From the NCBI GenBank assembly GCA_018242005.1, contig JAFECU010000269.1:1-64000 (forward strand): DNA of 64,000 bases, written 5' to 3'. Positions 28,179 through 60,003 of the stretch are shown piece after piece. The DNA is from Pseudomonadota bacterium (lineage in GTDB: Bacteria > Pseudomonadota > Gammaproteobacteria > Burkholderiales > Burkholderiaceae_C). Under the pieces are notes generated by a model that worked only from the letters and a program-made list of their open reading frames with translations, made no database searches and was not told where the DNA came from. The position numbers and the translations under genes were made by a program. Numbering within the stretch: the first letter of the stretch is position 1; each line of letters begins with the position of its first letter.

Positions 28179-28221
28179 GACGGATCACACCGGCCGTGGT
28201 GCCGGCATCCCGCCCGGAGCC

Positions 28222-28305
28222 GTCATCCCCGCGCAGGCGGGGATCCACGGTCGCGCGGCATGAACGTCGTGGTGGAGCCTGGCTCCCCGCCAGCGCGGGG
28301 ATGAC
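28222..28305. repeat. GTCATCCCCGCG-type palindrome, facing pair
   Basis: Arms 28222-28247 and 28281-28305 are near reverse complements, between convergent creA and the FrnE-like gene. It probably acts as a bidirectional terminator or boundary. Confidence 0.8.
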
Positions 28306-28351
28306 GGAGGTATTGCCGCGGCCATGGTCGCAAAAAAGCCCGCCACACATT

Positions 28352-28391
28352 GACAGACAAGCGCAAAAAGCTATCAAACAAATAGCAACTA
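28352..28391 (-). repeat. AT-rich ATAGCT-type repeat
   Basis: GACAAGCGCAAAAAGCTATC followed by AAACAAATAGC, AT-rich, at the 3' end of the FrnE-like gene. It is the inverse of the pattern seen at 33247-33300. Confidence 0.5.
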
Positions 28392-28401
28392 CATTGCTCC
28401 G

Positions 28402-29064: not shown

Positions 29065-29124
29065 GCATTCTCCGATGGCCATGGCCGACCATTGTCGCCG
29101 CGGCGCCGCGTAACAAATACATTC

Positions 29125-29153
29125 TTGACATGGCGGCAGTTCGGTACTGTGAT
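29125..29153 (+). promoter_or_regulatory. Candidate sigma-70 promoter for the lipase-like gene
   Basis: TTGACA at 29125-29130, 17 bases, then TGTGAT at 29148-29153, about 33 bases before the lipase-like ATG and followed by a GGAG ribosome-binding site. It was found by eye; the -10 matches four of six positions. Confidence 0.4.
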
Positions 29154-29186
29154 GCCACCTCGCCGCATCCACAGGAGCTGTCCGCC

Positions 29187-39091: not shown

Positions 39092-41872
39092 TCACAGCGA
39101 CTTCCTCAGCTGCTCGACCTCAGCCTGCGCCGGAAAGCGCGAGCCGGCCGCCGAGAGCTCATCAAGCACGGCCTTGGCGGCATCCTTTTGCCCGGCCTTG
39201 ATATAGATCTTGGCCAGATTCAGCTTGTACGCCAGCTCCTGAGGTTTCAGCTGCACCACCCGTTTTTGCAGTTCCACGGCGCGGTCGTGCTGGTTGGCGG
39301 CGGACAGCAGCATGGCCCAGGTGTCCATGAATGCGGGCTGGTTGGGCGCCAGCGTGTTGGCGCGCTCGGCATCGGCCAGGGCGCCGTCGCGGCCCAGCTG
39401 CCCCTTGATCCAGGCGATGTTGTTCAAGGCAAAGGCATTGTTGGGCTGCAGGTTCAGGGCGCGCTCGTATTGGTGCAGGCTCTCGGTCAGATCCTTCGCG
39501 GCCAGCGCACGGGTGCCCAGATACAGGGGGAAGGAGACGTCCTTGGCATGGTTGCGCTGCCAATCCGCGGCCCAGCGGTCAGCCTCGGCCTTTTTGCCGG
39601 CGGCCAGCAGCGCCTCGTGCAGCCGCAGGGCCAGCTCGGAATTGGCGGGCGCCTGCTTGAGGCCGGCGCGGAAGGCGTCCGCGGCCTTGTCCGGGGCCTT
39701 GAGGGCCATCTCGATCTCGCCTTCCAGCTTGAAGCCCACCGCTTCCTTGGGCCTTTGCTTCTGCACGGTGCGGCTGATGGCCAGGGCGTCGTCACCCTTG
39801 CCCTCGGTCATGGCCAGGCGGATCAGACCCTGCTGGGCCTCCAACGCGGTGGGGTCGATCTCCAGGGCCTTGCGCCAGTGCTGGCCGGCGGCGTTGCGGT
39901 CGCCGGCGATCAGGCTGGCACTGGCCATGCGCAGATAGGGCAGGGGCGACTGCGGCTGCAACGCCGCCATGCGGTTGAAGCTGGCCTGCGCCTGGTTGTG
40001 CTCGCCATTGGCCGATTGGGCACGCCCCAGGGCGTCAAGCAGTGACATGTCGTCGGGCAGCGCAGCCACGGCCTTTTGCGCCACCGACAGCGCCTCCTTG
40101 GGGTCGCCGTTGCGCAGGTAGTGATCGACCAGCAGCTGGCGCGGCACCGGGTTGTTCGGCGCACCATCGACGGCCCTGCGCAAGATGCCGGCCAGCTCGC
40201 TCTTGTCCGCGCCATTGGCCGCGCGAAGCTCCATCAGCACCACATAGGCCTGGACATTGGACGGATCACGCTTGATGGCGGCCTCGATGCGCGCGCGCGC
40301 ATCGTCCGGGCGCTTCTCGGAGGCGTCGAGCACCGCCAGAACGCCGACGGCGGGAAAGTAGTTGGGGTCGATCTGCAGCGCCCGCTCCAATGCCTTGCGC
40401 GCTCCGGCGCTGTCCTTTTTGAGCAGCAGGGCCCGGCCGCGCAGGAAGGCGGGCATGACGTCGGCGGGGCGCTTTTTCTCCAGCTGGTCGATGGCCTTGA
40501 GCGCCTGGTCCACCTTGTTCTCCTGCAGCAGCGCATTGATCAGGGCCATGTCGGCCACCACGCCCTCGTCGGAAGCGGCAATGCTCTGCAGCTCGCTCAG
40601 GGCCACGTCGCCCTTGCCCGCGGCAAGGTGGGTCATGGCCACGGAGGTTCGCAAGGTGGCGTCCTTCGGGACGATGCTGGACGCCTTGGCGAAATAGCGC
40701 TGCGCCTTGGTCACGTCGCCCTGCAGCATATAGGCCTGCCCGGCCAGAGACAGCATGCCTGGATCGCGGTCGTTGGCATCGATGTCGGACGGCAGGGTGG
40801 CAACCGCCTTGTCGAGGCGCCCCAGGCGCATATAGGTGCTCACCAGACCGCGGCGCGCCATGACCAGGCCGGGGCTCAGCTGCAGGGCCTTGGTCAGAGA
40901 GGCTTCGGCCTGGACGTTGGCCCCTAGCTGCAAGTCCGTCATGCCGGCAAGCTCAAGTGCCCGGGGGTTCTCGGGCGTCATGCGCACGAGCTTCTGCACG
41001 CTTTCCTGCGCCGCCTTGAAATCGTTCTTGAAGTAAGCCAGCATTGCCTGCAGGTAGAGGGTCTGCGGCTTGCCGGGCTCGGCCTTGACCAGGGTCTGCA
41101 AGGCCTCACCCGCGGCATCGGTCTTGCCCTGAAGGATCAGCAGCTCGACGATGGCGGCCTGCGCTTCGGCATTGGCAGGGTTGGCGGCAATGGAATCGCG
41201 GTACGCCGCCATGGCTGCGTCGGGGTCGCGCTTGCCATGGAGCAACAGGTCACCGCGCAGCTTGAGGGCCTCCGCTGTCGCCGGCGACTCCTTGGGGATG
41301 GTGGCAAGGCCGGCAAGGGCGCCATCGATGTCGCCCGAGCGGGCGCTGCTCCTGGCCTGCTCGATCACCGCCGGCGGGTAGCCGGCCTGGGCCTTGAGCG
41401 CGTCGGCCAGGCTCTCGCGCGCCTTGCCCTCGTTGCCCTGGCGCTGCCAGGCAATGGCCAGCGTGGTCTTCAGGCTCGCCTGGGCCAGCGGATCGGCAAG
41501 CTGCTGGTTCGCATAGTCGGTGGTGATCTTGTCGTATTGCCGGCTCCTGAGCAGGGCCATGGCCAGCTTGGGCAGCACCTCGACGGGAGGCACACCCAGT
41601 TCCTGCGCCTTTCTGAACTCAGTCTCGGCGCCCTGGGCATCACCCGACTTCTGCAAGGCCTCACCCAGCAGCAGGCGCGCCTTGGCGTTGTCGGGGCGGC
41701 TTTGCAGGGCGTTCTTGAGCTGGATGATGGCCGCCGATGTGTCGTTGCGCTTCAGGTAGTCCTGCGCCGACGCCACCATGGCATCGGGGTTGTCGCGGCC
41801 GCAGGCCGACAGCAGGATTGCCGCCGTCAACGCTGCTGCGGGAACGAGAGTGCGGGGGGTGAAAGCCGTCAT
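39092..41872 (-). CDS. prsT: PrsT, PEP-CTERM system TPR-repeat lipoprotein
   Basis: A 926-residue lipoprotein. Lipobox LLSAC places Cys24 as the lipid-modified residue. The rest is a continuous array of TPR repeats (for example NALQSRPDNAKARLLLGEALQ; ALQIDPNYFPAVGVLAVLD). This matches the PrsT family (TIGR02917), a marker of exosortase-A loci, thought to scaffold envelope or exopolysaccharide machinery. It lies 27 bases after prsR and before the trypsin-like protease. Confidence 0.93.
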   Translation of the reverse strand: MTAFTPRTLVPAAALTAAILLSACGRDNPDAMVASAQDYLKRNDTSAAIIQLKNALQSRPDNAKARLLLGEALQKSGDAQGAETEFRKAQELGVPPVEVLPKLAMALLRSRQYDKITTDYANQQLADPLAQASLKTTLAIAWQRQGNEGKARESLADALKAQAGYPPAVIEQARSSARSGDIDGALAGLATIPKESPATAEALKLRGDLLLHGKRDPDAAMAAYRDSIAANPANAEAQAAIVELLILQGKTDAAGEALQTLVKAEPGKPQTLYLQAMLAYFKNDFKAAQESVQKLVRMTPENPRALELAGMTDLQLGANVQAEASLTKALQLSPGLVMARRGLVSTYMRLGRLDKAVATLPSDIDANDRDPGMLSLAGQAYMLQGDVTKAQRYFAKASSIVPKDATLRTSVAMTHLAAGKGDVALSELQSIAASDEGVVADMALINALLQENKVDQALKAIDQLEKKRPADVMPAFLRGRALLLKKDSAGARKALERALQIDPNYFPAVGVLAVLDASEKRPDDARARIEAAIKRDPSNVQAYVVLMELRAANGADKSELAGILRRAVDGAPNNPVPRQLLVDHYLRNGDPKEALSVAQKAVAALPDDMSLLDALGRAQSANGEHNQAQASFNRMAALQPQSPLPYLRMASASLIAGDRNAAGQHWRKALEIDPTALEAQQGLIRLAMTEGKGDDALAISRTVQKQRPKEAVGFKLEGEIEMALKAPDKAADAFRAGLKQAPANSELALRLHEALLAAGKKAEADRWAADWQRNHAKDVSFPLYLGTRALAAKDLTESLHQYERALNLQPNNAFALNNIAWIKGQLGRDGALADAERANTLAPNQPAFMDTWAMLLSAANQHDRAVELQKRVVQLKPQELAYKLNLAKIYIKAGQKDAAKAVLDELSAAGSRFPAQAEVEQLRKSL

Positions 41873-43269: not shown

Positions 43270-45354
43270 CTATAGCTGCAAATCGGAATCACGACTGATT
43301 TCAATCAAGGGTAGCAGCAGGCTCACCACCGTGCCGCGGCCCACCTGGCTGTCCACCGACACCTTGCCTCCGAGCTCCTGCACATATTGAAAGCTCTCAT
43401 ACGTGCCAATGCCCATGCCTGCCTCCTTGGTGGTCTGAAACGGTTTGAACAAGCGCGTTTGGACGAATTCCTCGGTCATTCCCTGGCCCTCGTCCCCCAC
43501 TTCGACGCGGGCATGGCTGCCGAGGCGATCGACCTTGATCCAGATCCGGCCGTCCACTTCGGTGGCATCGAAGGCGTTGTGCAACAGATGGCCGATGATG
43601 CGCTCCAGTCGATCGGCCTGTCCACGGGTAAAAACCTGTGACGGCGCGTCCAGTTGCACGGTGCGCCCGCGGCGCAGTGCATTGGCGACCAAGGCCTCGG
43701 CAATCCTGACCAGATCCACCCCCACGGCCGCGGCCCCCGTGGCCGAGCCCTGGCGCAACTGCAGCATGAGCTGGCGCATGCGCTCGAGCGAGTTTTCGAC
43801 GGTCATCAGCATGTCGGCCTGGAACTCAGGGTTGTTCTGCAGCCGCTTGGCATTCTTCACCATGAGCGACAACTGGGCGACGATGTTTTTCAGGTCGTGC
43901 ACCACAAAGGCCGACATGCGGTTGAACGCCTCGAACTTGCGCGACTCCAGCAGCGCCTCGGTGGCCTGCATCTGCGCCAGAATGCTCGCCGCCTGACGGC
44001 CGGCGGTCTTCAGCAGGTCTATCACCTCCCAGTTCACCTCCACGCGCGTGCGTGGGCGGGCCAGCAACACGAAGCCCAGCAGGTCCTGGCCCTGCCACAG
44101 CGGCACCAGCAGCCAGGCCTGCGGGTATTCGGCCAGCCAGTCGGGGGCGCTCAAGTCGTTGTAGCGCGCGGGGAAGGCGCGCAGCTCCTCGAAGTTGATG
44201 ACCCAGCCCGTGGCGCGCATGAAGGCCAGCAGCTGGGCCTGCGGGTCCACCGCCTGAGTGGATTGGGCCAGGTTCCAGCGCGCCACCTGCCGGTACTGCT
44301 GGTCATCGGGACGGCGCAGCCACAGCGCGCCAGCCGGGCTTTCCAGCATGTCGGCCAGGCCACGAATCACGCTGCGGCCGGCCTCCTGAGGCTGGTCCTG
44401 GCTCGACAGCGTGGCCGTGAATTTCAGCCATTCCTCGCGGTAATCGAAGCGATAGCGGAAGAAGTTCTTGCCCAGAAACACCCGCAGCTTGGCGCGCAGC
44501 GAGCCCGACAGCACAAACGCCGCCGCCAGCACCAGGGCCACGAAGAACAGGCCCAGCTGCAGAGCCCCACCCCACTCGCCGCCAAAGTAGCGCACGTAGT
44601 AGCCCACCCCGGCCATGAACAGCAGGTACAAACCCACCAGCACCAGCGTTGCCGAGTGAAACACCACCTTACGCGATACGTTGATCTTGGCAATCCAGTT
44701 GCGATGCCGCGTGGTGGCCAGCAGCAGCAGCGGCACCATCAGCGCATGCACGAAGGGGCGCACGTTCAGGGCATCCGGGTCCAGCCCCTGCAGCAGCACG
44801 CCTTGGGAAAACAGATACAGGTCGAACAGGAAAATACCGGCCAGGCCCAGGCATACGGGCTTGGCGCTCCACAGCGCATCCTCGGGCAGGTTGCGAAACA
44901 ACTGCTCCACCAGCACCAGTCCGGCCACCGCCAGCAGCACCATGACAAACACATATCCGGCGGGCCCCACCATGGCCGCCATGGCCACGACGAGCAGCGG
45001 CGCCGCCGGCACTGCAAGAACGGCAAGCAGTGGCCGCCAGCGCTGCCAGGCACTCGGGGCAGCCCCCGCACGGCGATTGAAAAGCAGATACACGAACACC
45101 AGCCAGCCGAGGTAGCGCAATATGTCGGCCGACTGCGCCCCCAGCCACCAGGCGGGGTTCACCGCCAGAGCCCAATAGCTGAAGCCGCACCAGGCCACGG
45201 AAAGCACGGTCGCGGCCAGCATGTCCATCGCAATGAAGTTGACGGACCGCCTTTGGTACTCCTGCTGCAGCAGGCGCAGCGCCAACAACGCATAGGCGGC
45301 CGCGGCCCAGGCCCATCCCGAGTAGATCGCCGCGCTGGCGCCGCCCTTGCCCAT
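43270..45354 (-). CDS. prsK: PrsK, PEP-CTERM system sensor histidine kinase
   Basis: A 694-residue membrane kinase. About ten N-terminal transmembrane helices (residues 10-285), a GAF-like domain at about 310-455, a dimerisation/phosphoacceptor helix with His486 (FVVHDLKNIVAQLSLM), and a C-terminal HATPase (GMGIGTYESFQYVQELGG). Its ATG overlaps the decarboxylase stop (TGATG). It probably senses an envelope or exopolysaccharide signal and phosphorylates PrsR. Confidence 0.94.
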   Translation of the reverse strand: MGKGGASAAIYSGWAWAAAAYALLALRLLQQEYQRRSVNFIAMDMLAATVLSVAWCGFSYWALAVNPAWWLGAQSADILRYLGWLVFVYLLFNRRAGAAPSAWQRWRPLLAVLAVPAAPLLVVAMAAMVGPAGYVFVMVLLAVAGLVLVEQLFRNLPEDALWSAKPVCLGLAGIFLFDLYLFSQGVLLQGLDPDALNVRPFVHALMVPLLLLATTRHRNWIAKINVSRKVVFHSATLVLVGLYLLFMAGVGYYVRYFGGEWGGALQLGLFFVALVLAAAFVLSGSLRAKLRVFLGKNFFRYRFDYREEWLKFTATLSSQDQPQEAGRSVIRGLADMLESPAGALWLRRPDDQQYRQVARWNLAQSTQAVDPQAQLLAFMRATGWVINFEELRAFPARYNDLSAPDWLAEYPQAWLLVPLWQGQDLLGFVLLARPRTRVEVNWEVIDLLKTAGRQAASILAQMQATEALLESRKFEAFNRMSAFVVHDLKNIVAQLSLMVKNAKRLQNNPEFQADMLMTVENSLERMRQLMLQLRQGSATGAAAVGVDLVRIAEALVANALRRGRTVQLDAPSQVFTRGQADRLERIIGHLLHNAFDATEVDGRIWIKVDRLGSHARVEVGDEGQGMTEEFVQTRLFKPFQTTKEAGMGIGTYESFQYVQELGGKVSVDSQVGRGTVVSLLLPLIEISRDSDLQL

Positions 45355-46559
45355 CAGACCAACACCTCGGCGCAAGGCGGGTGGCCCAGAAATGCCTGCG
45401 GGCTGGCGCTGGCCCCATAGGCGCCGGACTGCAGCACCACCACCAGGTCGCCGGGACGGGCCACGGCCAGGTCCATGCGTTCGGCCAGCACGTCCAGGGG
45501 CGTGCACAGCGGCCCCACCACGGTGACCGACTCGCGTTCAGCCGACTGCAGCCGGTTGCCAATCACCACGGGGTAGTTGCGCCTGATCACCTGGCCAAAA
45601 TTCCCCGAGGCCGCCAGATGCTGGTGCATGCCGCCATCCGTCACCAGAAAGACCTGCCCGCGCGAGACCTTGCGGTCGAGCACGCGGGCCACATAGATGC
45701 CCGCCTCGCCCACCAGGTAGCGCCCCAGCTCCAGCGCCAGCCGCGCCGCGGGCCAGTCCCGTGCGACAGCCGCGTGCGCCCGTGCCAGGGCGTCAGCCAC
45801 GGGCGACAGGTCCAGGCGCTTTTCCCCCACCACATAGGGAATGCCCCAGCCCCCGCCCAGATTCACATAGCGCAGCGGGGCAGGCGCGTCCTGAGCCAGA
45901 CGCAACACCAGGTCCATGGACCGCTGCAGGCTCTCGGCGAGCACCTGGCCGCGCAGGTTCTGCGAGCCCGGATAGACATGAAAGCCCTCGAACGCCAGGC
46001 CTTCGCGGGCCATGGCGCGCAGCATGGCCGGCACCTGCTCGGCATCGATACCGAAGGGCTTGGCGCCGCCGCCCATGTGCATGCCGGCGCCGCGCAGCTC
46101 AAAGTCGGGGTTGATGCGCAGCGCCACGCGCGCCGGCCGCCCCAGCGCCTGGGCGGCCGCCGCCAGCAGCGCGAATTCACGCGCCGATTCGACATGCAGC
46201 AGCACGCCGGCGGCCACGGCCTGGCGCAGCTCGGCGTCGCGCTTGCCCGGGCCGGCAAATCCTATGGACCGGGGGTCCGCACCGGCATCCAGTGCCAGCT
46301 TGAGCTCACCGGCCGAGGCCACGTCCATGCCATCGACCAGCGGACCTATGAAGCCCACCAGCGCCGCCATGGGGTTGGCCTTGACGGCGTAGTGCAGCTG
46401 CACGCCCCGCGGCAACCGCTCACGCACGGCGGCGATGCGCGCGGCGATCAGGGCGCGGTCGTAGGCGTAAAAGGGCGTCTGGCCCACACGCTCGGCCAGC
46501 AGGGACAGCGGCAGGCCGCCCACGTGCAGTTCATCGCGGCCCAGGTCAAACAGATCCAT
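45354..46559 (-). CDS. PLP-dependent decarboxylase, exosortase A system-associated
   Basis: A 401-residue fold-type III decarboxylase like diaminopimelate/ornithine decarboxylases. PLP Lys60 in LHYAVKANP; phosphate-binding glycines in NLGGGWGIPY; a Cys in GPLCTPLDVLAE in the active-site region of this fold. It matches the family named pyridoxal-dependent decarboxylase, exosortase A system-associated. The substrate is unknown. It overlaps the AMP ligase by 14 bases and prsK by 1, so it is tightly coupled. Confidence 0.92.
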   Translation of the reverse strand: MDLFDLGRDELHVGGLPLSLLAERVGQTPFYAYDRALIAARIAAVRERLPRGVQLHYAVKANPMAALVGFIGPLVDGMDVASAGELKLALDAGADPRSIGFAGPGKRDAELRQAVAAGVLLHVESAREFALLAAAAQALGRPARVALRINPDFELRGAGMHMGGGAKPFGIDAEQVPAMLRAMAREGLAFEGFHVYPGSQNLRGQVLAESLQRSMDLVLRLAQDAPAPLRYVNLGGGWGIPYVVGEKRLDLSPVADALARAHAAVARDWPAARLALELGRYLVGEAGIYVARVLDRKVSRGQVFLVTDGGMHQHLAASGNFGQVIRRNYPVVIGNRLQSAERESVTVVGPLCTPLDVLAERMDLAVARPGDLVVVLQSGAYGASASPQAFLGHPPCAEVLV

Positions 46560-48183
46560 GTTCCTGCATCCAGCGTTGACGGTCCAGCTTGCCATTGGGG
46601 CTGCGCGGCAGCGGCTGCGCCACCCATTGCAGCTGCTTCGGCAGCATGTAGGCGGGCAGGTGTTGGCCGCAGAAGGCCAGCAGCGCGGCGCTGTCATCCG
46701 CCGCCTGACCGCTGGCCCGTGGCGACGCCAGCAGGGCCGCGCAAATGGCGCTGCCCAGAGCGTCGTCGGGCCGGGCGTAGACCAGCGCCTCGACCACCAG
46801 GCCGCTGGCGTACAGCACCTCTTCGACCTCGGTCGGACTGACGCGGTAGCCCGAGGTCTTGATCATCTCGTCGCGCCGCCCCACGAAGTACAGAAAGCCC
46901 TCGGCATCGCGACGCACGGTATCACCCGAATACACCGCCATTTCGGGCGCGCCCTGGTGGCCAGTCGTGGCCTGCAGGGCCGCCGGCCAGGGCTTGAAGC
47001 GGCGGGCCGTCTCCTCGGGCCGGCGCCAGTAGCCCAGGGCCACGAGGGCGCCGCGGTGGACCAGCTCGCCGGGCTCGTCAACGGCGCACTCCGTGCCATC
47101 CTCGCGCAGCACGCACACCTGGGCATTGGGTATGGCCCGGCCAATCGAGTCCGGCCGGCGGTCCACCTCCTCGGGCGGCAGGTAGGTGGAGCGAAAGGCC
47201 TCGGTCAGCCCATACATCAGATAGGGCGCGGCGGCAGGCGCCAGGCCGCGCAGCCGCTGCAGCGTGGCCCGGGGCATGCGCCCGCCGGTATTGGCAAAGT
47301 AGCGCAGATGCTGGGTCGCCGCGGTCGGCCAGTCCAGCGCAGCCAGCTGCATATAGAGCGGCGGGACGGCCGTCAGACCCGTGACGCGCTCTCGCGCCAT
47401 GGCCTGCAGCACGTCTCGCGGCAGCAGGTAGTTAAGCAGCACCACGCGCGCACCCACCAGGAAGCCCGTCGTGAGCTGGCTGAACCCGGCGTCGAACGAC
47501 AGCGGCAGCACCGCCAGCAAGGTGTCGCCCGCGTGGTTGTGCAGGTAGCCCGCCACGCTGACTGCGCCACTGACCACGTTGCGGTGCGATAACACCACCC
47601 CCTTGGGCCTGCCCGTGCTGCCGGAGGTGTAGAAAATGACCGCCACATCCATGTCCAGCACCCTGGGCAGGCCGGCCGGCTGGTGGGCCAGCAGCTCACG
47701 CCAGCCATGCAAGGCGGCGCCGCCCGGCGAGGGAGCAGGCAGGCCCTCATCGACCAGCACCACATGACGCAGCCCGGGGCAATCGGCCAGCGCTGGCGCC
47801 AGCACCGCGAGCCGCGCGGCCGACGTCACCAGCACCTGGGCCTCGGCGTCCCTCACGATATGAGCCACCTGAGCGGCCTTGAGCAGCGGGTTCACGGGCA
47901 CCAGCACCGCGCCCGCCGCGGGCGCGGCAAAGCTGGCCACCACGGCCTCCAGACGCTTTTCCAGATACACCGCAACGCGTGCCCCGCGCGCCAGCCCCAG
48001 GCCCAGCAGGCCCGCAGCGCAGCGCTCAATATCGGCCTGCAGCCCGTTGTAGCTGAGGTGCTTGCCATCGATCGTCAACGCCACCTGATCGGGCCAGCAG
48101 GCCGCCGCCCGGGCGGGAAGCTCGTGCAGCAAGACGGGGGGGATTCCCCTTTGGAAGTCCAGTTCTTGGGGCATGCGGCGCAT
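46546..48183 (-). CDS. AMP-forming acyl-CoA/ACP ligase, exosortase A system-associated
   Basis: A 545-residue adenylate-forming ligase. Motifs: YTSGSTGRPKGVVLSHRNV, MYGLTEAFRSTYLPPEEVD, YSGDTVRRDAEGFLYFVGR and a C-terminal Lys in SPNGKLDR. It matches the family of acyl-CoA ligases fixed in exosortase-A loci. The divergent ACP gene 82 bases away suggests loading of an acid onto ACP rather than CoA; this is inference. ATG at 48183 used; an in-frame ATG at 48174 is also possible. Confidence 0.92.
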   Translation of the reverse strand: MRRMPQELDFQRGIPPVLLHELPARAAACWPDQVALTIDGKHLSYNGLQADIERCAAGLLGLGLARGARVAVYLEKRLEAVVASFAAPAAGAVLVPVNPLLKAAQVAHIVRDAEAQVLVTSAARLAVLAPALADCPGLRHVVLVDEGLPAPSPGGAALHGWRELLAHQPAGLPRVLDMDVAVIFYTSGSTGRPKGVVLSHRNVVSGAVSVAGYLHNHAGDTLLAVLPLSFDAGFSQLTTGFLVGARVVLLNYLLPRDVLQAMARERVTGLTAVPPLYMQLAALDWPTAATQHLRYFANTGGRMPRATLQRLRGLAPAAAPYLMYGLTEAFRSTYLPPEEVDRRPDSIGRAIPNAQVCVLREDGTECAVDEPGELVHRGALVALGYWRRPEETARRFKPWPAALQATTGHQGAPEMAVYSGDTVRRDAEGFLYFVGRRDEMIKTSGYRVSPTEVEEVLYASGLVVEALVYARPDDALGSAICAALLASPRASGQAADDSAALLAFCGQHLPAYMLPKQLQWVAQPLPRSPNGKLDRQRWMQEHGSV

Positions 48184-48265
48184 GTTAAGGCATTGCCAGG
48201 CACCAAAAGGCTGCTCATCAAATGTCTAGAATCAAATGTACTTTTGCCGCCCATACCTGCCCGCC

Positions 48266-48526
48266 ATGAACCTGACCGAACAAGTCCTGCAAGTGCTCGA
48301 TCACGCGCTCAGCCTGCAAGGCCGCACCAAGGCCTTCCAGCGCGACACTCCGCTGCTTGGCGCCCTGCCTGAGCTCGACTCCATGGCGGTGCTGGCCGTC
48401 ATCACCGGGCTGGAGAACCAATTCGCCATCACCTTCAGCGACGATGAACTCCACGGCGCGGTGTTCGCCAGCGTCGGCAGCCTCTGCGACCTGGTCGAGC
48501 AGGCCCTGGCCCAGCAAGACTCATGA
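48266..48526 (+). CDS. Acyl carrier protein
   Basis: An 86-residue carrier protein. The phosphopantetheine site is Ser39 in ELDSMAVL. It is acidic and helical, like phosphopantetheine-binding proteins of exosortase-A loci, and distinct from the fatty-acid AcpP (no DSL motif; DSM here). It is the first gene of a three-gene operon with the two hydrolase-fold proteins and is divergent from the AMP ligase. Confidence 0.92.
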   Translation: MNLTEQVLQVLDHALSLQGRTKAFQRDTPLLGALPELDSMAVLAVITGLENQFAITFSDDELHGAVFASVGSLCDLVEQALAQQDS

Positions 48527-48527
48527 C

Positions 48528-49391
48528 ATGAGCGCCGCCGCGCGCCCCAACTGGCCCCAGCTGCCCCAGGCCTTCTTCCTGGAGTCCGAAGGCGGGCAAC
48601 GGTTTTGCCTCTATCACGCCCCGCAGGGTGGCGCACCGCGCGGCCGCGTGCTCTACCTGCACCCCTTTGCCGAAGAGCTCAACAGCACGCGCCGCGTCGT
48701 GGCCCGGCAGGCGCGCGCACTGGCCCGGGCCGGCTTCGGCGTGCTGCAGATCGACCTGGCTGGCTGCGGCGACAGCGCGGGCGAATTTGCCGACGCCACC
48801 TGGGCCGCCTGGCTTCAGGACGCGCTGGCGGCGCGGCACTGGCTTGCCGACCACGCCGGCGGCCCGTTGTGGCTGTGGGGCCTGCGCGCGGGCGCCGTTC
48901 TGGCGGCGCAACTGGCCAGCCTGTTGCAGGCGCAGGGCGAAGAAGCCGCCAACCTGCTGCTGTGGCAGCCCGTGGCCAGCGGCCGGCAGATGCTGCAGCA
49001 GTTTATGCGCCTGCACGCCGCCAGCCAGTGGCTCGGTGGCGGCAAGGACGAGCTGCCGCCCGCCCAGGCACTGGCACAGGGCCGGGCCGTCCACATCGCC
49101 GGCTATTGCCTCAGCCCCGCCCTGGCCCAGGGGCTGGCCGAGGCCCAGCTGCCCGTCCCCACGGCCGTGCTGCCGCCCCTGCCAGCGCCGCGGCTACTGT
49201 GGCTGGAGCTGTCGTCCGCGCCCACCCCCACACTCAGCCCCGCCGCCGACAAGCAGCTAAACGCCTGGCGCACCGCCGGCTGGCGCGTAGAGGCGCAGGC
49301 CGTGGCAGGCCCCGCCTTCTGGCAATCCGTGGGCACCGACGAGGCGCCTGCCCTCATCGAGTCCACCCTGGCGGCGCTTGCCCGGCCATGA
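48528..49391 (+). CDS. Hydrolase 2, exosortase A system-associated
   Basis: A 287-residue alpha/beta-hydrolase-fold protein (LYLHPFAEELNSTRRVVARQ; LQIDLAGCGDSAGEF). The nucleophile elbow reads GLRAG: Arg120 stands where Ser, Cys or Asp would be, so classical hydrolase chemistry is not expected. It matches the family named hydrolase 2, exosortase A system-associated. It starts 1 base after the ACP stop and overlaps hydrolase 1 (ATGA), pointing to a coupled pair. Confidence 0.88.
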   Translation: MSAAARPNWPQLPQAFFLESEGGQRFCLYHAPQGGAPRGRVLYLHPFAEELNSTRRVVARQARALARAGFGVLQIDLAGCGDSAGEFADATWAAWLQDALAARHWLADHAGGPLWLWGLRAGAVLAAQLASLLQAQGEEAANLLLWQPVASGRQMLQQFMRLHAASQWLGGGKDELPPAQALAQGRAVHIAGYCLSPALAQGLAEAQLPVPTAVLPPLPAPRLLWLELSSAPTPTLSPAADKQLNAWRTAGWRVEAQAVAGPAFWQSVGTDEAPALIESTLAALARP

Positions 49392-50230
49392 ACCTCCAGG
49401 AACGACCCATCCACATCGCCGGCGACGGCTTCGACATGCTGGGCATGCTGGCCCTGCCCGCACCGGGTGCGCCCCTGCGGCACACCGGCGTGCTGGTGGT
49501 GGTGGGCGGCGCCCAGTACCGCGTGGGCAGCCACCGGCAGTTCGTGCGGCTGGCGCGCCGCCTGGCTGCCGCCGGCTACCCCGTGCTGCGCTTTGACCTG
49601 CCCGGCATGGGCGACAGCCCCGGCGCACCCGTGCCGTTCGACAGCTGCAGTCCCCATATCGCCGCCGCCCTGGCCGCGCTGCTGCACGCCGCCCCCGTCC
49701 GGCACGCCGTGCTCTGGGGCCTGTGCGACGGCGCCTCGGCCAGCCTGCTCTACCTGCAGGCCACGCAGGACGCGCGCGTGACGGGCCTGGCCCTGCTCAA
49801 CCCCTGGGTACGGTCCGAGGTCGGCCTGGCCCGCGCGCAGGTCAAACACTATTACCGCCAGCGGCTGCTGGAGCCGGCCTTCTGGCGCAAGCTGGCCGCC
49901 GGCGGCGTGGGCTGGACGGCGCTGCGCGGCCTATTGAAGAACCTGCGCGCCATGCGGCAAGCGGCCGCCCCGTCACTCACATTTCAGGAGCTAATGGCAC
50001 AGGGTTGGCATGCGTTTGAAGGCAAAATCTTGCTGATTTTGAGCGAGCGCGACCTGACGGCGCAGGAATTCATGGACCATGCCGCCACGCAGCCCGCCTG
50101 GCGCGACGCGCTTCAGCGCCCCGGTGCGAGCCTGCACCGGCTGGCCGGCGCCGACCACACCTGCTCGCCCCCAGCCAGCCAGGCACAGGTGGAAGATCTG
50201 ACGCTGGCCTGGCTGGCCGCCATGGACTAG
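49388..50230 (+). CDS. Hydrolase 1, exosortase A system-associated
   Basis: A 280-residue alpha/beta-hydrolase-fold protein. The nucleophile elbow is GLCDG, giving Cys113 as the likely nucleophile, with Asp222 (SERDLT) and His257 (GADHTC) completing a triad. A Cys nucleophile favours acyl transfer as well as hydrolysis. It matches the family named hydrolase 1, exosortase A system-associated (GAQYRVGSHRQFVRLARRLA). It overlaps hydrolase 2 by ATGA and is encoded with a dedicated ACP. Confidence 0.9.
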   Translation: MNLQERPIHIAGDGFDMLGMLALPAPGAPLRHTGVLVVVGGAQYRVGSHRQFVRLARRLAAAGYPVLRFDLPGMGDSPGAPVPFDSCSPHIAAALAALLHAAPVRHAVLWGLCDGASASLLYLQATQDARVTGLALLNPWVRSEVGLARAQVKHYYRQRLLEPAFWRKLAAGGVGWTALRGLLKNLRAMRQAAAPSLTFQELMAQGWHAFEGKILLILSERDLTAQEFMDHAATQPAWRDALQRPGASLHRLAGADHTCSPPASQAQVEDLTLAWLAAMD

Positions 50231-50324
50231 GCGCACCCGCGCCGTCGTCGGCTCCAGGGGCGAAAACGTCGATTTTTTTTACATCGCACCCGCCGACTTT
50301 CGCTAAGTCATTGATTTACATAGC

Positions 50325-50340
50325 TGGCACGCAACCTGCT
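50325..50340 (+). promoter_or_regulatory. Sigma-54 promoter upstream of the PEP-CTERM gene
   Basis: TGGCACG-N4-CTGCT: GG at 50326-50327 and GC at 50338-50339 are 12 bases apart, as required for -24/-12 elements, with one mismatch to the TTGCW half. It predicts a start near 50351, 41 bases before the ATG, which has an AGGAG site. It fits control by the neighbouring PrsR. Confidence 0.75.
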
Positions 50341-50391
50341 TACTGACAGTGCGAACTCATCCTATGTAAGCCTTTTCTCCAGGAGCTCAAC

Positions 50392-51156
50392 ATGAAAGCA
50401 CTCAAGACACTGGTGGCCTCGGCGGTTCTTGCCCTGTCTGCCGGCAGCGCGTTCGCTGTCTATGTAAACCCCGTAGGCGGCGACGGCCCCAATTCATCGC
50501 TGCAAGACGTCATCAATGGCCTGTACCATTCGCCTACCTGCCCCACCTGCTCGCCGGTTGGCAATGCGCCCAACGTCACTACCGACCAGGCAGGCGCCGA
50601 GTTGTTCCAGATCGAGGCCTCGGGCGGCTCGATTGCCACCATGATCATCCAGCTCGCCGGATTGGCTAGCTCCACCTCTTTTGGTATTTACGACCCGAAC
50701 AACACGGCAACGAAACTTCAGATTTTTGCCGGCGGTGTCGCACAGGGCGGGCAGGCAACTCTCTCATCGAACGCCAGCAATGTGTTCACGTTGAACTACG
50801 GCAATGCGACGCAGTTCTCGTCTGCCACCTTCGGCTACTACATCGACGTGGCGGGTACCTACTTCTATTCGCAGGCCAGCCTGAATGGCGGCAATCAGCA
50901 ATTGGTGGATTACCGCGGGGACGGAGACACGATCATGTTGCCCGATCACGCAGCTGGCGTCTGGGGGCCGTCGAGCTATATCTTGGCGTGGGAAGACAAG
51001 GCTCTGAACAACGGTTCCGACAAGGACTATCAGGACTTGGTCGTCTACGTCGAGTCCGTGACCAAGGTGCCGGAGCCCGGTTCTCTGGCCCTGCTGGGTC
51101 TGGGTCTGTCCGGTCTGGCCTTCGCCTCGCGCCGCAAGCAAAAGAACACCAAGTAA
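50392..51156 (+). CDS. PEP-CTERM sorted exported protein
   Basis: A 254-residue exported protein. Signal peptide residues 1-22 (ending GSAFA). The mature part is Asn/Ser/Gly-rich and beta-rich, with a YILAWEDKALNNGSDKDYQDLVVYVE segment resembling DUF4114-type domains. The C-terminus is a classic PEP-CTERM signal: VPEPGSLALLGLGLSGLAFA then SRRKQ. Exosortase would cleave it near the Pro-Glu-Pro. It has its own sigma-54 promoter and a strong terminator. Confidence 0.95.
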   Translation: MKALKTLVASAVLALSAGSAFAVYVNPVGGDGPNSSLQDVINGLYHSPTCPTCSPVGNAPNVTTDQAGAELFQIEASGGSIATMIIQLAGLASSTSFGIYDPNNTATKLQIFAGGVAQGGQATLSSNASNVFTLNYGNATQFSSATFGYYIDVAGTYFYSQASLNGGNQQLVDYRGDGDTIMLPDHAAGVWGPSSYILAWEDKALNNGSDKDYQDLVVYVESVTKVPEPGSLALLGLGLSGLAFASRRKQKNTK

Positions 51157-51180
51157 TTCGAACCCCGTGTTCGCACTCAA

Positions 51181-51206
51181 AGGGTGGCCGAGGCCACCCT
51201 TTTTTT
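51181..51206 (+). terminator. Rho-independent terminator after the PEP-CTERM gene
   Basis: AGGGTGGCC, a 2-base loop, GGCCACCCT, then seven T (the last stem T included): a perfect 9-bp stem, 25 bases after the stop codon. Confidence 0.92.
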
Positions 51207-51245
51207 ATGGTTCAAGTCGCGATGTCCGATGATGAACAAACCGCC

Positions 51246-51331
51246 GTCATCCCCGCGAAGGCGGGGATCCACGGCAACAACGAATCAACGGCGTCTGTAG
51301 CGCCTGGAGCCCCGCCTTCGCGGGGATGATG
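51246..51331. repeat. GTCATCCCCGCG-type palindrome, facing pair
   Basis: Left arm 51246-51271 and right arm about 51305-51331, separated by ACGAATCAACGGCGT. It lies between the PEP-CTERM gene and the convergent acyltransferase-like gene. The arms differ at two positions. Confidence 0.8.
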
Positions 51332-51436
51332 ACGGGCTGCGCGCACATAGCGTGCCATGAGAGGACGAATCAATGGATATCGCTACTTGAGCCAATCCAA
51401 TAGACACCACTGCCTGAGCCCTTGTTTGCCTGCGGC

Positions 51437-52426
51437 TCAACGGCGGCGCAGCAGCCTGCCCGCAAAATGCCGCCCTGCGGCCAACAGGCCGGCGGCGCGG
51501 CGGGGGTCAAACGCCACCAAACCCACCCGCTCGCGCCGCAGCGCCATCCAGTCGCGCTTGTAGGCGTCGTCGCCGCTCAGGTAGTCCACCTCCTGCACCC
51601 TGTCCACATCCATGGCGCGCTGCATCAGTGCCGCGGTCAGCACCGAGCCGGCAGAAAACCGTTCCTGCCCCTGCACATAGGCCAGCTTGTAGATATTGGC
51701 CTTGCCATCACACACCAGCCAAACTTGCGCGGCCAGGGCTTGCCCGCCCAGCCACAATACCCCCAGGCGCAGCCAACCCTCGCGCGCCGCCATGCGCACC
51801 AGGGCGGGCATGAAGTCGGGACAAGGCTCGGGCGCCTTCCAGCTGCTGGCGTACACCGCCAGGTAAGCGGCCAAGCCTTCATCCAGCGCGGGCGACACAT
51901 GGTCGATGATGTCGATCCGCCAATCGCCCGCCCGGTCGAGCCGGCGCCGGCCGCGCTCCACGCTGTGGCGCAGCGCCGAGGGGCGTTGCTGCCAATAGGC
52001 GGCAAAACCACCGGCGGGCACCGGTTGGTACCAATTTGCAAAGCAAAAGAATCGGTCGGTCCGGTACCCAGCCGCGCGCAGCCCCTGTTCAAACGAGGCC
52101 AGCCATGCAACATCCGCATCCAGCGGCTGCAGGCGCAATACGCTGCTGCCCGGTAATTGTTGCAATTTCCGCACAGCCGCCGGCCACTGATCGGCTGCAA
52201 TATCCTGGTCGGTTCGCACCGTGCCCGTAGGGCCATATAGGCCGCTGTAATAGTTGCTTAAAGCACACAAAGCACCGCCCGAAGACTCCTGCATCAAATG
52301 CAGCCGCCCAGCCTCGCCCGATTGCGACGGCCACGGCAAAACCCAATGCTTGTGTGGGGGGCAAACAAAGCCATGGGCCAGCAGATTGGCAAACCAGACC
52401 TCCGACTGAAAGACCTCGCCAGGCAC
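51437..52426 (-). CDS. BioF2-like GNAT/FemAB-type acyltransferase
   Basis: A 329-residue protein of the BioF2-like acetyltransferase group (CelD/FemAB-like): FAAYWQQRPSALRHSVERG, YASSWKAPEPCPDF, LRLGVLWLGGQALAAQVWLV and KLAYVQGQERFSAGSVL. Such enzymes acylate sugars or peptides in exopolysaccharide loci. The start is a GTG at 52426 backed by a GGGAGG site (52431-52436); no ATG fits. Confidence 0.8.
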   Translation of the reverse strand: MPGEVFQSEVWFANLLAHGFVCPPHKHWVLPWPSQSGEAGRLHLMQESSGGALCALSNYYSGLYGPTGTVRTDQDIAADQWPAAVRKLQQLPGSSVLRLQPLDADVAWLASFEQGLRAAGYRTDRFFCFANWYQPVPAGGFAAYWQQRPSALRHSVERGRRRLDRAGDWRIDIIDHVSPALDEGLAAYLAVYASSWKAPEPCPDFMPALVRMAAREGWLRLGVLWLGGQALAAQVWLVCDGKANIYKLAYVQGQERFSAGSVLTAALMQRAMDVDRVQEVDYLSGDDAYKRDWMALRRERVGLVAFDPRRAAGLLAAGRHFAGRLLRRR

Positions 52427-53044: not shown

Positions 53045-55297
53045 ATGAAAGTTTCGCAGATTCAAAACCAGTTTCTCAAAGACGGCCAATACCGGACATT
53101 GTCAGGCCTGTTGGTTCTAGCAAGCCTGTCGGCTTGCGGAGGCGGCAGCAGCGGCAGCGAACTGGCCGCGGGCGGCATGTCTCCGATCACACCGGCAGCA
53201 TCCACGTCCATTACCTTCAGGCCGGTCACCTCGCCCCCCTCCTCTTCGACGCCGACTCAGCCGCCACTTTCCACGCTACCCACCCAACCCTCGTTGCCCG
53301 CGGCTCCTACGCCGATTCCGCAGTCGCCCTTCAAGTGCGCCGCCGATGCAATCACCTGCGTCGAAGTCGCATCCGGCAGCGCCCAGGCTCAGGCCAGCGT
53401 GCCCGTCACCTTTGGTCAACCGTTCAAGGCCGGCGACTGGAAGTTCAGCACCCAGGGCCTGATCGCCAAGGTGGATGGCGTCAACATTCCACTGCAAACC
53501 GACGAGATCGCCTCCCACCGCGATGGCTCGGCACGCTTTGCCGTGCTCAGCGCCCAGCTGAGCAACCTGCAACCCGGCCAGAGCAAGATCATCAACCTCT
53601 ACGCGGGCAGCAAGTCGGCCAGCACGCCCAGCGTGCCCAGCAATCCCGACTGGAACCTTGAACTCGAAGCCCAGGTGGTTGACGCCAACGGCGCCACGAC
53701 CACGCTGATCGCCCAGCCCCAGGCCGATCTGGTCAAGCAGATCGCCAACAACACGGCACACCGCCTGTCCGGCGCCGTGGCCAACGAGTACACCGTGGCC
53801 GTGCCGTTCAAGAACAAGGCCACCGGTGCCACACATCCGCACCTGACGGCACGCCTGCACACCCGACTGGTGGACGGTGGCCAGCGCATCCGCACCGACG
53901 TGGTAGTGGAAAACACCCGCACCTGGACGGCCAGCCCGGGCAACGTCACCTATTCGCTCGCCGTCAAGCGCAATGGCAGCACTATCTACACTCAGCCCAA
54001 ATTCACGCACTACCACCACGCCCGCTGGCACAAGGTGCTGTGGACCGGAGCGTCGGCCGAGCCGCAGGCACGTGTACGCCACAACATGCCGTACTTCCTG
54101 GCGAGCAAGGCGATCTGGAACTATGACCTGAGCCTGACCATCCCCGAATCTACGCTGGCGAGCTTCTACGGCCAGTACACGCAAAGCAAGGCCTCGCAGT
54201 CCAACCTGGGCCCCATGGCCAACCTGCTGCTGACGCCCGCGTTTGGTACCACCGGTGGCCGCCCCGAGATTGGCCCCGTGCCCCAATGGACGGCGATGTA
54301 CCTCATCTCTCAAGACGAGCGCATGAAAGAGATCATGCTGGCCCATGCCGATGCGGCAGGCTCCGTCCCCGTTCACTATCGCGACGAGGCGTCCAACCAG
54401 CCCCTGGACTTGGACCACTATCCGAATGTGTCAACCTGGCGCGGCACGTCACAGCCGGCACTGCCCACCGTGGTCAATGGCAACACCATCTGGGATCCGG
54501 ACACCTCGCACCAGGCCTCGTTTGCCTACGTGCCTTACATGATCACCGGCGACGCGTTCTACCAGGATGAAATGGCCTACTGGGCCGCCTGGGACCTGAC
54601 AGCCATGAATCCGGCCTACCGTTCCGCCGGCCAAGGTCTGCTGTGGGAGGACCAGGTGCGCGGGCAGGCATGGTCTCTGCGTGCGCTGGGCGAGGTTTCG
54701 CGCATCCTCCCCGACTCGCACGCAATGAAGTCGTACTATCAGGGCCGCCTTTCCAATAGCCTCGAGTGGTTCTATCAGAATTGGGTGGCATCGCCTCTGG
54801 CCGACGTGTCGCCCATGGGATCTCCGGTGAACCCATATTCGCCAAGCTACACTGGCCCCTGGCAAAACGACTTCTGGGCCATCGTCATGGCTCAACATGT
54901 GGAGGCCAGCGAGCCCAGGGCGAAGGAGCTCCTCAACTGGGTCAGCAAGTTGGGAGTAGGACGCTTCCAGAACGAGGCGCAGGGGTTCTGCGTGGCGAAG
55001 GCACCCGGCTACTACCTCCAACTCAAGAATGCCAGCGGCAAGTGGATCACGACCTGGAGCGAATTTGCGCAGGTTAACTTCCCGGGGGTAACTTGCAGCA
55101 GCACCCTGCCGATTGAGCCAGACAGCTATCCTGCTTCGTCTAGTGGAGCGGCAGCGATGGCTCGCGCAATGCTCGCCACAGCAGCAAGCGTCGATGTTCC
55201 GGGTGCGGCCAGTGCCTATACCATGTGGCGAGCAAAGACGCCTCTGATTGACAATGCCGCCCCCAACGATCCCACTTGGGCCATCGTTCCCCGATAG
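53045..55297 (+). CDS. Large lipoprotein of unknown function
   Basis: A 750-residue envelope lipoprotein. Lipobox SLSACGG gives Cys31. A Pro/Ser/Thr-rich flexible linker (about 45-95) precedes a long globular part: a beta-rich region (about 110-340) and an alpha-helical region with WEDQVRGQAWSLRALGEV and PWQNDFWAIVMAQHVEA. This layout loosely recalls RIFT-barrel plus alpha-toroid polysaccharide lyases (YetA/PcRGLX-like), which I offer only as a guess. It sits between the PEP-CTERM gene and the exopolysaccharide genes and ends with a strong terminator. Confidence 0.75.
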   Translation: MKVSQIQNQFLKDGQYRTLSGLLVLASLSACGGGSSGSELAAGGMSPITPAASTSITFRPVTSPPSSSTPTQPPLSTLPTQPSLPAAPTPIPQSPFKCAADAITCVEVASGSAQAQASVPVTFGQPFKAGDWKFSTQGLIAKVDGVNIPLQTDEIASHRDGSARFAVLSAQLSNLQPGQSKIINLYAGSKSASTPSVPSNPDWNLELEAQVVDANGATTTLIAQPQADLVKQIANNTAHRLSGAVANEYTVAVPFKNKATGATHPHLTARLHTRLVDGGQRIRTDVVVENTRTWTASPGNVTYSLAVKRNGSTIYTQPKFTHYHHARWHKVLWTGASAEPQARVRHNMPYFLASKAIWNYDLSLTIPESTLASFYGQYTQSKASQSNLGPMANLLLTPAFGTTGGRPEIGPVPQWTAMYLISQDERMKEIMLAHADAAGSVPVHYRDEASNQPLDLDHYPNVSTWRGTSQPALPTVVNGNTIWDPDTSHQASFAYVPYMITGDAFYQDEMAYWAAWDLTAMNPAYRSAGQGLLWEDQVRGQAWSLRALGEVSRILPDSHAMKSYYQGRLSNSLEWFYQNWVASPLADVSPMGSPVNPYSPSYTGPWQNDFWAIVMAQHVEASEPRAKELLNWVSKLGVGRFQNEAQGFCVAKAPGYYLQLKNASGKWITTWSEFAQVNFPGVTCSSTLPIEPDSYPASSSGAAAMARAMLATAASVDVPGAASAYTMWRAKTPLIDNAAPNDPTWAIVPR

Positions 55298-57589: not shown

Positions 57590-58672
57590 TCACCTCATGA
57601 AACGAACATACCAAGGCATCGCCTGGGTGATACCCTCTTTGATCTCGTGGCTCGGCATGTAGCCCAAGAGTCTTTGAGCCTTGCCGATGTCGGCCTGACT
57701 ATGGCGCACGTCGCCGGCGCGAAAATCCCGATGAACGGGGGCCTTGGCATAGGAAACGCCGTTGCCCGCCAGGGCTGACCTCAATTCTTGGAACAAGGTA
57801 TTGAGGGTGGTGCGGCCAGAAACCGCGACGTTATACACTTCGTTGAGCGCGGCAGAATCGGCCGCGGTGGCCGCCAGCAGATTGGCCTGGACGGCATTTG
57901 CGACAAAACAAAAATCGCGGCTGGTCTCCCCGTCGCCGTTGATAAAAACCTCCTGGTCTTGGATCATGGCGGCCGTCCATTTGGGGATCACGGCGGCGTA
58001 GGCACCATTGGGATCCTGGCGCGGGCCAAACACATTGAAGTAGCGTAGTCCAATGGCGTTAAAGCCGTAAACCCGGGCAAAGACTTCGGCATAGAGCTCA
58101 TTGACATACTTGGTGACGGCGTAGGGAGACAGGGGTTTGCCAATCAGCTCTTCGACCTTGGGCAGGCCAGGGTGGTCACCGTAGGTACTGCTGCTGGCGG
58201 CGTAGGTGAAGCTTTGAACCCTGGCGTCACGCGCTGCCACCAGCATGTTCAAAAATCCGGAGATATTGACGCTGTTGGTGGTGACGGGGTCTTCGATACT
58301 ACGCGGCACGCTGCCCAGAGCAGCCTGGTGCAGGACAAAATCGACGGGGATGGCCCCCGGCTGGGTTCCAGCGCGCCCCGCCTCCGACGGTGCAGGACAA
58401 AACGCCATGGCAAGGCGGCAGTCGTCCAGATGACGAATGTCGCCTTCGATGAAATGAAAGTTAGCCCACTGCGCATCAGAAACCGAGGTTTGCACTTCAT
58501 CCAGGTTGCGCTGGTGTCCGGTGGAGAAGTTGTCCAGGCCCACCACGCGTTGGCCCAGATTGAGCAAGGCTTCCAGCAGGTTGCTGCCTATGAAGCCCGC
58601 CACGCCGGTAATGAGCCATGTTCTTGGCGTGGCTTGAAGTTGATCGCGTACAGCTTGATAGCGCGTCGGCAT
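57590..58672 (-). CDS. UDP-GlcNAc 4-epimerase (WbpP/TviC-like)
   Basis: A 360-residue SDR-family sugar epimerase: Rossmann [15 protein letters not shown], catalytic SPYAVTKY (Tyr-x-x-x-Lys), and WbpP-like [14 protein letters not shown] and [22 protein letters not shown]. It interconverts UDP-GlcNAc/GalNAc or their uronic acids. An atypical 19-residue insert (residues 91-109, DNA 58346-58402) precedes DFVLHQAAL and sits between two copies of a 14-base direct repeat. It starts 2 bases after the dehydrogenase stop. Confidence 0.92.
58327..58402. repeat. 14-base direct repeat within the epimerase gene
   Basis: GGTGCAGGACAAAA occurs at 58327-58340 and again at 58389-58402, 62 bases apart, so the two copies are read in different frames. 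They flank the 19-residue insert of the epimerase. Confidence 0.85.
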
Positions 58673-58674
58673 GC

Positions 58675-59952: not shown

Positions 59953-60003
59953 AGGCAAGAAATTGAAGAAAGACTCTGCCATCGCATCATAGAACCAGTA
60001 GCA

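Follow-up and report, generated by a model that had tools for sequence, protein, structure and literature searches.

A stretch of 64,000 nucleotides from a Pseudomonadota bacterium (Burkholderiaceae_C; assembly GCA_018242005.1, contig JAFECU010000269.1, positions 1 to 64,000; referred to here as the window) was analysed, and five of its genes were read, at a probability of roughly 70%, as a thiotemplated module for beta-alanine that accompanies an exopolysaccharide/exosortase A (XrtA) locus. The genes lie in two divergent operons. The minus-strand operon encodes an AMP-forming ligase (TIGR03098; 46546-48183), a pyridoxal phosphate (PLP) decarboxylase with an alanine-racemase fold (TIGR03099; 45354-46559), PrsK, PrsR and PrsT, while the plus-strand operon encodes a stand-alone acyl carrier protein (ACP; 48266-48526), the alpha/beta-hydrolase-like protein hydr2 (TIGR03101; 48528-49391), hydr1, of the alpha/beta-hydrolase fold (TIGR03100; 49388-50230), and a PEP-CTERM protein. 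Protein families were scored against NCBIfam curated cut-offs, with a Pfam threshold of E 0.001. The ligase scored 733 bits (cut-off 592), the decarboxylase 597 (478), hydr2 283 (203) and hydr1 287 (168). The ligase and decarboxylase genes overlap by 14 bases and the hydr2 and hydr1 genes by 4 bases (ATGA). The original prediction, made from the DNA letters alone, had placed a dedicated small-molecule pathway at 46546..50230. Its five genes are real, four by the cut-offs above and the ACP by its DSM motif and a match to 2lki; the interval contains the ligase, ACP, hydr2 and hydr1, but the decarboxylase gene reaches into it by 14 bases only.

The ligase is probably an L-aspartate:ACP ligase acting on the beta-carboxylate, as judged from its substrate pocket. 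When residues 175-345 were compared with the PDB, the top two sequences were VinN (76 bits), followed by 8xjz, of which two stretches sum to 68.5 bits (best 40.9), all others scoring 54 or less; with the full-length ligase, multi-domain synthetases scored higher by summed stretches and VinN was the best stand-alone enzyme. VinN is described as activating the side-chain carboxylate of (methyl)aspartate. In the available portions of the two sources, its D230 is assigned to the substrate amino group and S299/R331 to the alpha-carboxylate (PMC7756342), while F231 is reported to be important for binding and K330/R331 and a short loop are also described (PMC11253843); all five residues fit a numbering equal to the printed chain number minus 16. 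The corresponding pocket of the window ligase is D231, A232, T299, F330, R331 and K532. The equivalents of VinN D230 and R331 (D231 and R331) were found to be invariant in 20 of 20 sequences from a class sample (one even draw of 185 genomes) and in 81 of 81 from a named set plus the window; the named set comprises the best 80 named loci with the ligase, favours nearest kin, has many loci ended by contig ends and is no census. In a wider set of 112 rows, which contains the window twice, the six pocket letters were DATFRK in 86 and DYSFRK in 20; the other six are distant rows, four of them (L026-L029) with the Arg but not the Asp. The beta13-beta14 loop keeps the VinN length, and a FadD-like ligase encoded elsewhere in the window has one residue more there, in a comparison set of one FadD-like control and L029 in which no alpha-amino-acid domain was aligned. 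The pocket letters of this FadD-like ligase are GAGPT, and a fatty acyl-CoA ligase reading was dropped because the pocket residues are unlike those of this control.

Several pocket features weigh against a simple transfer of VinN's specificity. VinN differs at three of the six positions (F231 to A232, S299 to T299 and K330 to F330 in the window), and the position of F231 is occupied by Ala in the group to which the window belongs (86 rows, window twice) and by Tyr in the second group (20 rows), so that the bulky residue is absent from the window ligase, as it is from the afc-type ligase of locus L124 described below, which also has Ala. Nor is R331 diagnostic by itself, since L026-L029 retain the Arg without the Asp. 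Given Ala232, we would describe the window ligase as probably working like VinN and do not class it as VinN-type. Loci L025-L029 (genomes G014, G136, G045 and G077) form a distant ligase group in which the VinN-type Arg is kept and the amino-binding Asp is missing in four of five; G014 carries two copies of a ligase of this group on one contig.

The decarboxylase is probably BtrK/VinO-like and is predicted to act on a carrier-bound beta-aspartyl group. As a single sequence it scored 266 bits against BtrK (7ru7, 2j66) compared to 161 bits against diaminopimelate decarboxylase, the next family, and a family profile built from 15 sequences gave 361 bits for BtrK versus 238 for the next family. 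The family and BtrK share a GPLCTP stretch, of which C-T-P is kept in all 73 rows that reach the motif (gaps in 3 of 76); diaminopimelate decarboxylase 2p3e reads GPICETGD. Lys60, which on general knowledge of the fold we take to be the PLP lysine, is conserved in 76 of 76 rows. A diaminopimelate decarboxylase reading was dropped, BtrK being preferred by more than 100 bits. It should be set against this assignment that C-T-P is not unique to BtrK, as 6knh, named a probable diaminopimelate decarboxylase, also has LCTP. BtrK decarboxylates glutamate while it is bound to the carrier BtrI, according to the available part of PMC7857480. The original prediction had proposed an acyl or amino-derived group, which can now be sharpened: the acid is probably aspartate, with activation at the side-chain carboxylate and decarboxylation taking place on the carrier.

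Carrier-bound conversion of aspartate to beta-alanine has been described in natural-product pathways. In the accessible text of PMC12186527, AfcQ activates L-Asp, not beta-Ala, and loads AfcK in vitro, AfcP turns the AfcK-bound Asp into beta-Ala by decarboxylation, also in vitro, and a further round of loading on the amine of the beta-alanyl group is possible. In the portions available of two further papers, a conversion of L-Asp to beta-Ala on the carrier is proposed for BolO/BolC/BolN of bolagladin (PMC7756342), and with VinN/VinL/VinO (vicenistatin) and FlvN (fluvirucin) (methyl)aspartate is activated, loaded on a stand-alone carrier and decarboxylated there (PMC11284099). Locus L124 of Burkholderia arboris encodes an AMP-binding enzyme read as a fatty acyl-AMP ligase (FAAL), a carrier, a citrate synthase, a decarboxylase-like protein and, on weak hits, a KASIII-like protein. 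The Ser of the L124 carrier is at position 40, which is also the position given for the Ser of AfcK, and 192 residues separate the TEAFR Arg of the L124 ligase from the A10 Lys, the same spacing as Arg311/Lys503 of AfcQ. From this gene content we infer that L124 is the afc cluster. The L124 ligase is 50% identical to the window ligase over 518 residues and has the same six-letter pocket code.

In a ligase tree of 50 sequences (VinN outside the set, rooted for drawing only, with several long branches including L124), L124 and L121 formed a group of five (98/96) together with the polysaccharide ligases of Sinorhizobium meliloti, Aureimonas and genome G304; this group plus one row (91/76) adjoins the window's group of 16, the two together making up a group of 22 (96/95). 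L121 and L124 are joined with weak support (89/56). Since the tree nests L124, along with L121, in the exosortase-associated ligase family, the aspartate precedent would sit inside that family if L124 is afc. There are points on the other side: L124 has an AurF-like gene, and the word AurF had no match in the available part of PMC12186527, while the L124 and window decarboxylases are only 29% identical, because of which AfcP would be a distant precedent for the window enzyme. Locus L121 (NZ_CP091013.1, Burkholderia cenocepacia, approximately 10.3-22.4 kb) is a LuxR/LuxI-linked cluster with an ACP, a ligase 52% and a decarboxylase 54% identical to those of the window, three KASIII-like genes and two acyl-CoA-dehydrogenase-like genes.

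The window ACP exceeds none of the NCBIfam curated cut-offs and gave no hit in Pfam at the threshold used, but it matched the solved protein 2lki at E 1e-11, and its D38-S39-M40 is conserved in 67 of 67 aligned rows; PP-binding Pfam hits were obtained for the S. meliloti and Aureimonas copies. Ser39 is the presumed phosphopantetheine attachment site.

The genes were found to recur together. In the class sample the ligase was above cut-off in 21 genomes and the decarboxylase in 19 (21 at E 1e-100, a level reached in 19 of the 21 ligase genomes), while hydr1 was present in 15 genomes, all of which also carry the ligase and hydr2, and hydr2 in 16, including G014 (weak, and without hydr1). Among the best 80 loci the decarboxylase was found in 75, on the same strand as the ligase in all and no more than 300 bases away in 66; the ACP was found in 66, within 1.5 kb in 53; and hydr1 and hydr2 occurred together in an identical 48 loci, every one of them with the ACP. 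Because ligase and decarboxylase, as well as hydr1, ligase and hydr2, recur together across genomes, the grouping is not due to chance; the Fisher p-values computed for the genome counts leave kinship out of account. The original prediction was right in proposing a dedicated pathway for a small molecule, with a carrier protein of its own. On the opposite side of the balance, the ACP was not found in 14 and hydr1/hydr2 were not found in 32 of the 80 loci.

The relationship to exosortase differs between the parts of the module. XrtA was above cut-off in 34 genomes of the class sample (any match to the model in 55); it was above cut-off in 14 of the 21 ligase genomes, a weaker match in 3 and not matched in 4 (G052, G104, G120 and G146), and the ligase is absent from 20 of the 34 XrtA genomes. 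Exosortase was present in 14 of the 15 hydr1 genomes, and in 21 of 21 genomes picked from the best 80 named loci. In a phylum sample of 398 genomes, in which the ligase was counted at E 1e-170, 27 genomes had the ligase. When the two lists were matched by eye, an exosortase was present in 24 of the 27, and it was present in 82 of the 398 overall; the ligase genomes without one were G304, G345 (74% complete) and G590. In G304, which is scored 100% complete and in whose whole genome no exosortase was found, the ligase, decarboxylase and ACP (the core trio) lie in an operon of the S. meliloti type (L150). In G590 the trio is present and polysaccharide genes were not recognised nearby (BLAST). In the class-sample genome G052, which has no exosortase match, the ligase and decarboxylase (L110) are in the vicinity of genes for an HprK-related kinase A (TIGR04352) and for an NTP_transf_5 protein.

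The operon on S. meliloti pSymB (L120, CP140955.1) reads GNAT-like protein, ligase, decarboxylase, ACP, glycosyltransferase and polysaccharide deacetylase, followed beyond the deacetylase by further glycosyltransferases, a UDP-galactopyranose mutase and an O-antigen ligase, and the gene content on Aureimonas pAU20a (L122) is similar. The L120 polysaccharide cluster (11504-29386) has sulfotransferase and pyruvyltransferase genes nearby. Exosortase was found in none of the four plasmid records holding L120, L122, L121 and L124, in a search of the plasmids and not the chromosomes. Exosortase-dependence of the core trio was weakened as an explanation, the trio being present in the G304, pSymB and pAU20a polysaccharide operons with no exosortase found. 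Because the trio also occurs in such operons, and because 20 of 34 XrtA genomes have no ligase, the evidence favours exopolysaccharide over PEP-CTERM proteins as the acceptor. The original prediction had named either the exopolysaccharide or the PEP-CTERM anchor as the destination of the group; the former gains from these results and the latter loses.

Among the neighbours in the best 80 loci, annotated by scanning one representative per cluster, were the XrtA-type glycosyltransferase EpsB_2, an O-glycosylation ligase, a flippase-like protein, an asparagine-synthase-like amidotransferase (below cut-off) and PF13480 proteins, a cluster with a PF13480 representative occurring in 14 of the 80. 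Relatives of the GNAT-like protein were found near hydr1 in five (L035, L074, L076, L078 and L086). The label GNAT-like is our reading of the sequence alone, and it counts against its use here that Pfam and PDB searches with the S. meliloti protein gave no match.

The hydrolase label of the original prediction fits the two proteins as regards the fold and no further, hydr1 having a Cys nucleophile and hydr2 an Arg in its place. At the nucleophile elbow of hydr1 (Cys113) the 49 aligned rows have Cys in 47, Gly in 1 and a gap in 1, Asp222 is present in 47 (two gaps) and His257 in 46 (one Pro, two gaps), and Cys was present in all nine further members that cover the elbow. In hydr2, Arg120 occupies the nucleophile position in 49 of 49 rows, and the alignment has no conserved His column near the protein end; among distant candidates Arg was present in 6 of 14 rows (window included), the remaining 8 having matched hydr1 or been partial and thus uncounted. 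A serine hydrolase reading was dropped for both proteins, as the elbow Ser is absent. The predicted model of hydr1 (pLDDT 91.2) shows the alpha/beta-hydrolase fold; feruloyl esterases and a lipase are its closest structural matches, and DcsB and GrgF, both Cys-using enzymes, are among those that follow. The polyhydroxyalkanoate synthase PhaC and BAAT likewise use Cys-His-Asp on this fold and act on acyl thioesters; they were not among the fold matches listed for hydr1, which excludes nothing. We suggest that hydr1 may be an aminoacyl transferase (or thioesterase) working through a Cys thioester, with hydr2 as a probable non-catalytic partner, and this is the weakest part of the reading. Equally good candidates for the final transfer are GNAT-type proteins, such as the PF13480 GNAT-superfamily protein encoded at 51437-52426 on the minus strand (Pfam).

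The following sequence of events is proposed. The ligase would adenylate the beta-carboxylate of L-aspartate and load it on the phosphopantetheine of the ACP, and the BtrK/VinO-like decarboxylase would then strip the alpha-carboxylate on the ACP to give beta-alanyl-S-ACP, separate from the free beta-alanine pool; both steps are modelled on homologues, and we hold them with good confidence. Less firmly, Cys113 of hydr1, perhaps with the nucleophile-less hydr2 as partner, may accept the aminoacyl group and transfer it onward, or a GNAT-type protein may transfer it straight from the ACP. The target would be an amino or hydroxyl group of an exopolysaccharide sugar, to which positive charge would be added; that the polysaccharide is the acceptor is held with moderate confidence. 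The substrate, like the acceptor, is a prediction, and so is any action of the window enzymes on sugars. The original prediction is half right and partly supported, in that the module appears to be an aspartate-to-beta-alanyl-ACP system serving an exopolysaccharide locus. As a tentative extension, on the doubtful side of even odds, the system may be widespread, placing carrier-bound beta-alanine or short oligo-beta-alanine onto exopolysaccharide amino sugars by means of the Cys-enzyme hydr1 and the nucleophile-less hydr2, so as to make a cationic slime for floc- and biofilm-formers, the Burkholderia lipopeptide makers having borrowed the module from polysaccharide loci and not the reverse.

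Four other explanations were considered. The logic could be the same with another acid, either glutamate activated at its gamma-carboxylate and converted to 4-aminobutyryl-ACP, as in butirosin, or 3-methylaspartate converted to 3-aminoisobutyryl-ACP, as in vicenistatin. BtrK, the nearest solved relative of the decarboxylase, does use glutamyl-ACP, and the ligase pocket departs from VinN at three of six positions and is smaller at 232, but the same six pocket residues occur in the L124 ligase, from a cluster taken as afc, whose ligase uses L-Asp, and we consider another acid unlikely. About as improbable, if not slightly more so, is a modification, by the aminoacyl group, of PEP-CTERM proteins or of the lipid or glycan anchor of the exosortase system. 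In the window hydr1 is followed by a PEP-CTERM gene, and exosortase is present in 17 of 21 (class) and 24 of 27 (phylum) ligase genomes, and for hydr1/hydr2 such a use is a possible one given the 14 of 15 hydr1 genomes with exosortase; against this stand the 20 XrtA genomes without the ligase and the trio in polysaccharide operons where exosortase was not found (in the whole genome for G304, in the plasmid records only for pSymB and pAU20a).

The module could also, like its Burkholderia relatives, make a small molecule that is released, lipopeptide-like or a signal, in which case hydr1 would be a thioesterase. This we judge to be no more probable than anchor modification: no KASIII-like, acyl-CoA-dehydrogenase-like or fatty acyl-AMP ligase gene was present among 17 open reading frames (ORFs) scanned at 39-63.7 kb (not every ORF was scanned), and polysaccharide genes are among the neighbours annotated in related loci. 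Very improbable is an accidental grouping of an ordinary fatty acyl-CoA ligase, a lysine-pathway decarboxylase and two esterases. The NCBIfam name 'acyl-CoA ligase' and weaker matches to long-chain-fatty-acid ligases would suit it, but the amino-binding Asp and Arg are invariant and are missing from the FadD-like control, BtrK is preferred over diaminopimelate decarboxylase by the margin given above, and neither hydr1 nor hydr2 has a Ser nucleophile.

Beyond the module, the minus-strand operon continues downstream of the decarboxylase with the histidine kinase PrsK (43270-45507 for the ORF as listed, the true start being probably further in), the response regulator PrsR (TIGR02915; 41900-43261) and the TPR protein PrsT (39092-41872), the latter two by NCBIfam, and on the plus strand the PEP-CTERM protein downstream of hydr1 is encoded at 50392-51156 (NCBIfam). 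The XrtA gene is on a different contig (C201) of the same assembly. The divergent intergenic region between the ligase and ACP starts (48184-48265, 82 bases) contained no sigma-70-like or sigma-54-like site at two or fewer mismatches, and no sigma-70-like site was found within 45200-51400. The window's best sigma-54-like site (50325-50340, plus strand, one mismatch) lies approximately 50 bases upstream of the PEP-CTERM gene at 50392; over the whole window such sites are not enriched (15 versus 19.5 expected from shuffles). A terminator-like hairpin was observed at 51179-51202, past the PEP-CTERM gene. A TviC-like epimerase (489 bits, below the cut-off of 760) and a UDP-sugar dehydrogenase are encoded at 57590-59982 on the minus strand, because of which an amino-sugar acid (N-acetylhexosaminuronic acid) is likely in the window's polysaccharide. 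On the plus strand there are also a sulfatase-fold protein with a weak match to the phosphoethanolamine transferase EptA (55574-57478) and a large protein with a PcRGLX-like N-terminal domain (53045-55297; Pfam 24.9 bits, no NCBIfam match), which from its N-terminus is probably a lipoprotein.

Searches of the literature found nothing on the S. meliloti cluster, and none of the terms ligase, decarboxylase, hydrolase and acyl carrier had a match in the 2006 PEP-CTERM paper. None of the papers matched in open-access PMC had exosortase/PEP-CTERM together with BtrK or VinN, and among the open-access PMC matches listed no printed use of aspartate/beta-alanine carrier chemistry in exosortase or polysaccharide loci was found. 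A Geobacter transcriptome paper mentions exosortase, PEP-CTERM and beta-alanine together (word match only). The four 'exosortase A system-associated' families carry no specific reaction in their annotation, and their first two steps can now be assigned, with the qualifications above, to known chemistry. If the group is placed on polysaccharide, the matrix of bacteria that form flocs and biofilms would gain positive charge; the S. meliloti pSymB copy allows the matter to be approached genetically in a model organism.

The chemistry itself is known from antibiotics; what may be new is its setting in exosortase/polysaccharide loci. The afc and bol systems resemble the window in having a ligase, a stand-alone carrier and a PLP decarboxylase, but their product goes into a lipopeptide by way of KASIII-like enzymes, dehydrogenases and (in afc) a FAAL, whereas the window's module lies in a polysaccharide/XrtA locus with hydr1 and hydr2. 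The vicenistatin (VinN/VinL/VinO) and fluvirucin (FlvN) systems are alike in the ligase, VinN D230 and R331 being conserved in the window; vicenistatin differs in that a polyketide starter unit is made, which VinM protects with an alanyl group and VinK transfers, and in that F231, S299 and K330 are not retained in the window. Butirosin (BtrI/BtrJ/BtrK) supplies in BtrK the closest solved relative of the decarboxylase, but its substrate is glutamate, and its ligase BtrJ is an ATP-grasp enzyme, not an AMP-forming one of the window's kind. hydr1 is like PhaC in having Cys-His-Asp on an alpha/beta-hydrolase fold and unlike it in its nearest solved folds, which are feruloyl esterases. A further comparison is with the XrtA accessory families TIGR03098, TIGR03099, TIGR03100 and TIGR03101, of which the window proteins are members above cut-off. 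The original prediction that the genes are named only by their association with exosortase A holds for these four NCBIfam names, which give no specific substrate, but the chemistry can be read from the characterised relatives.

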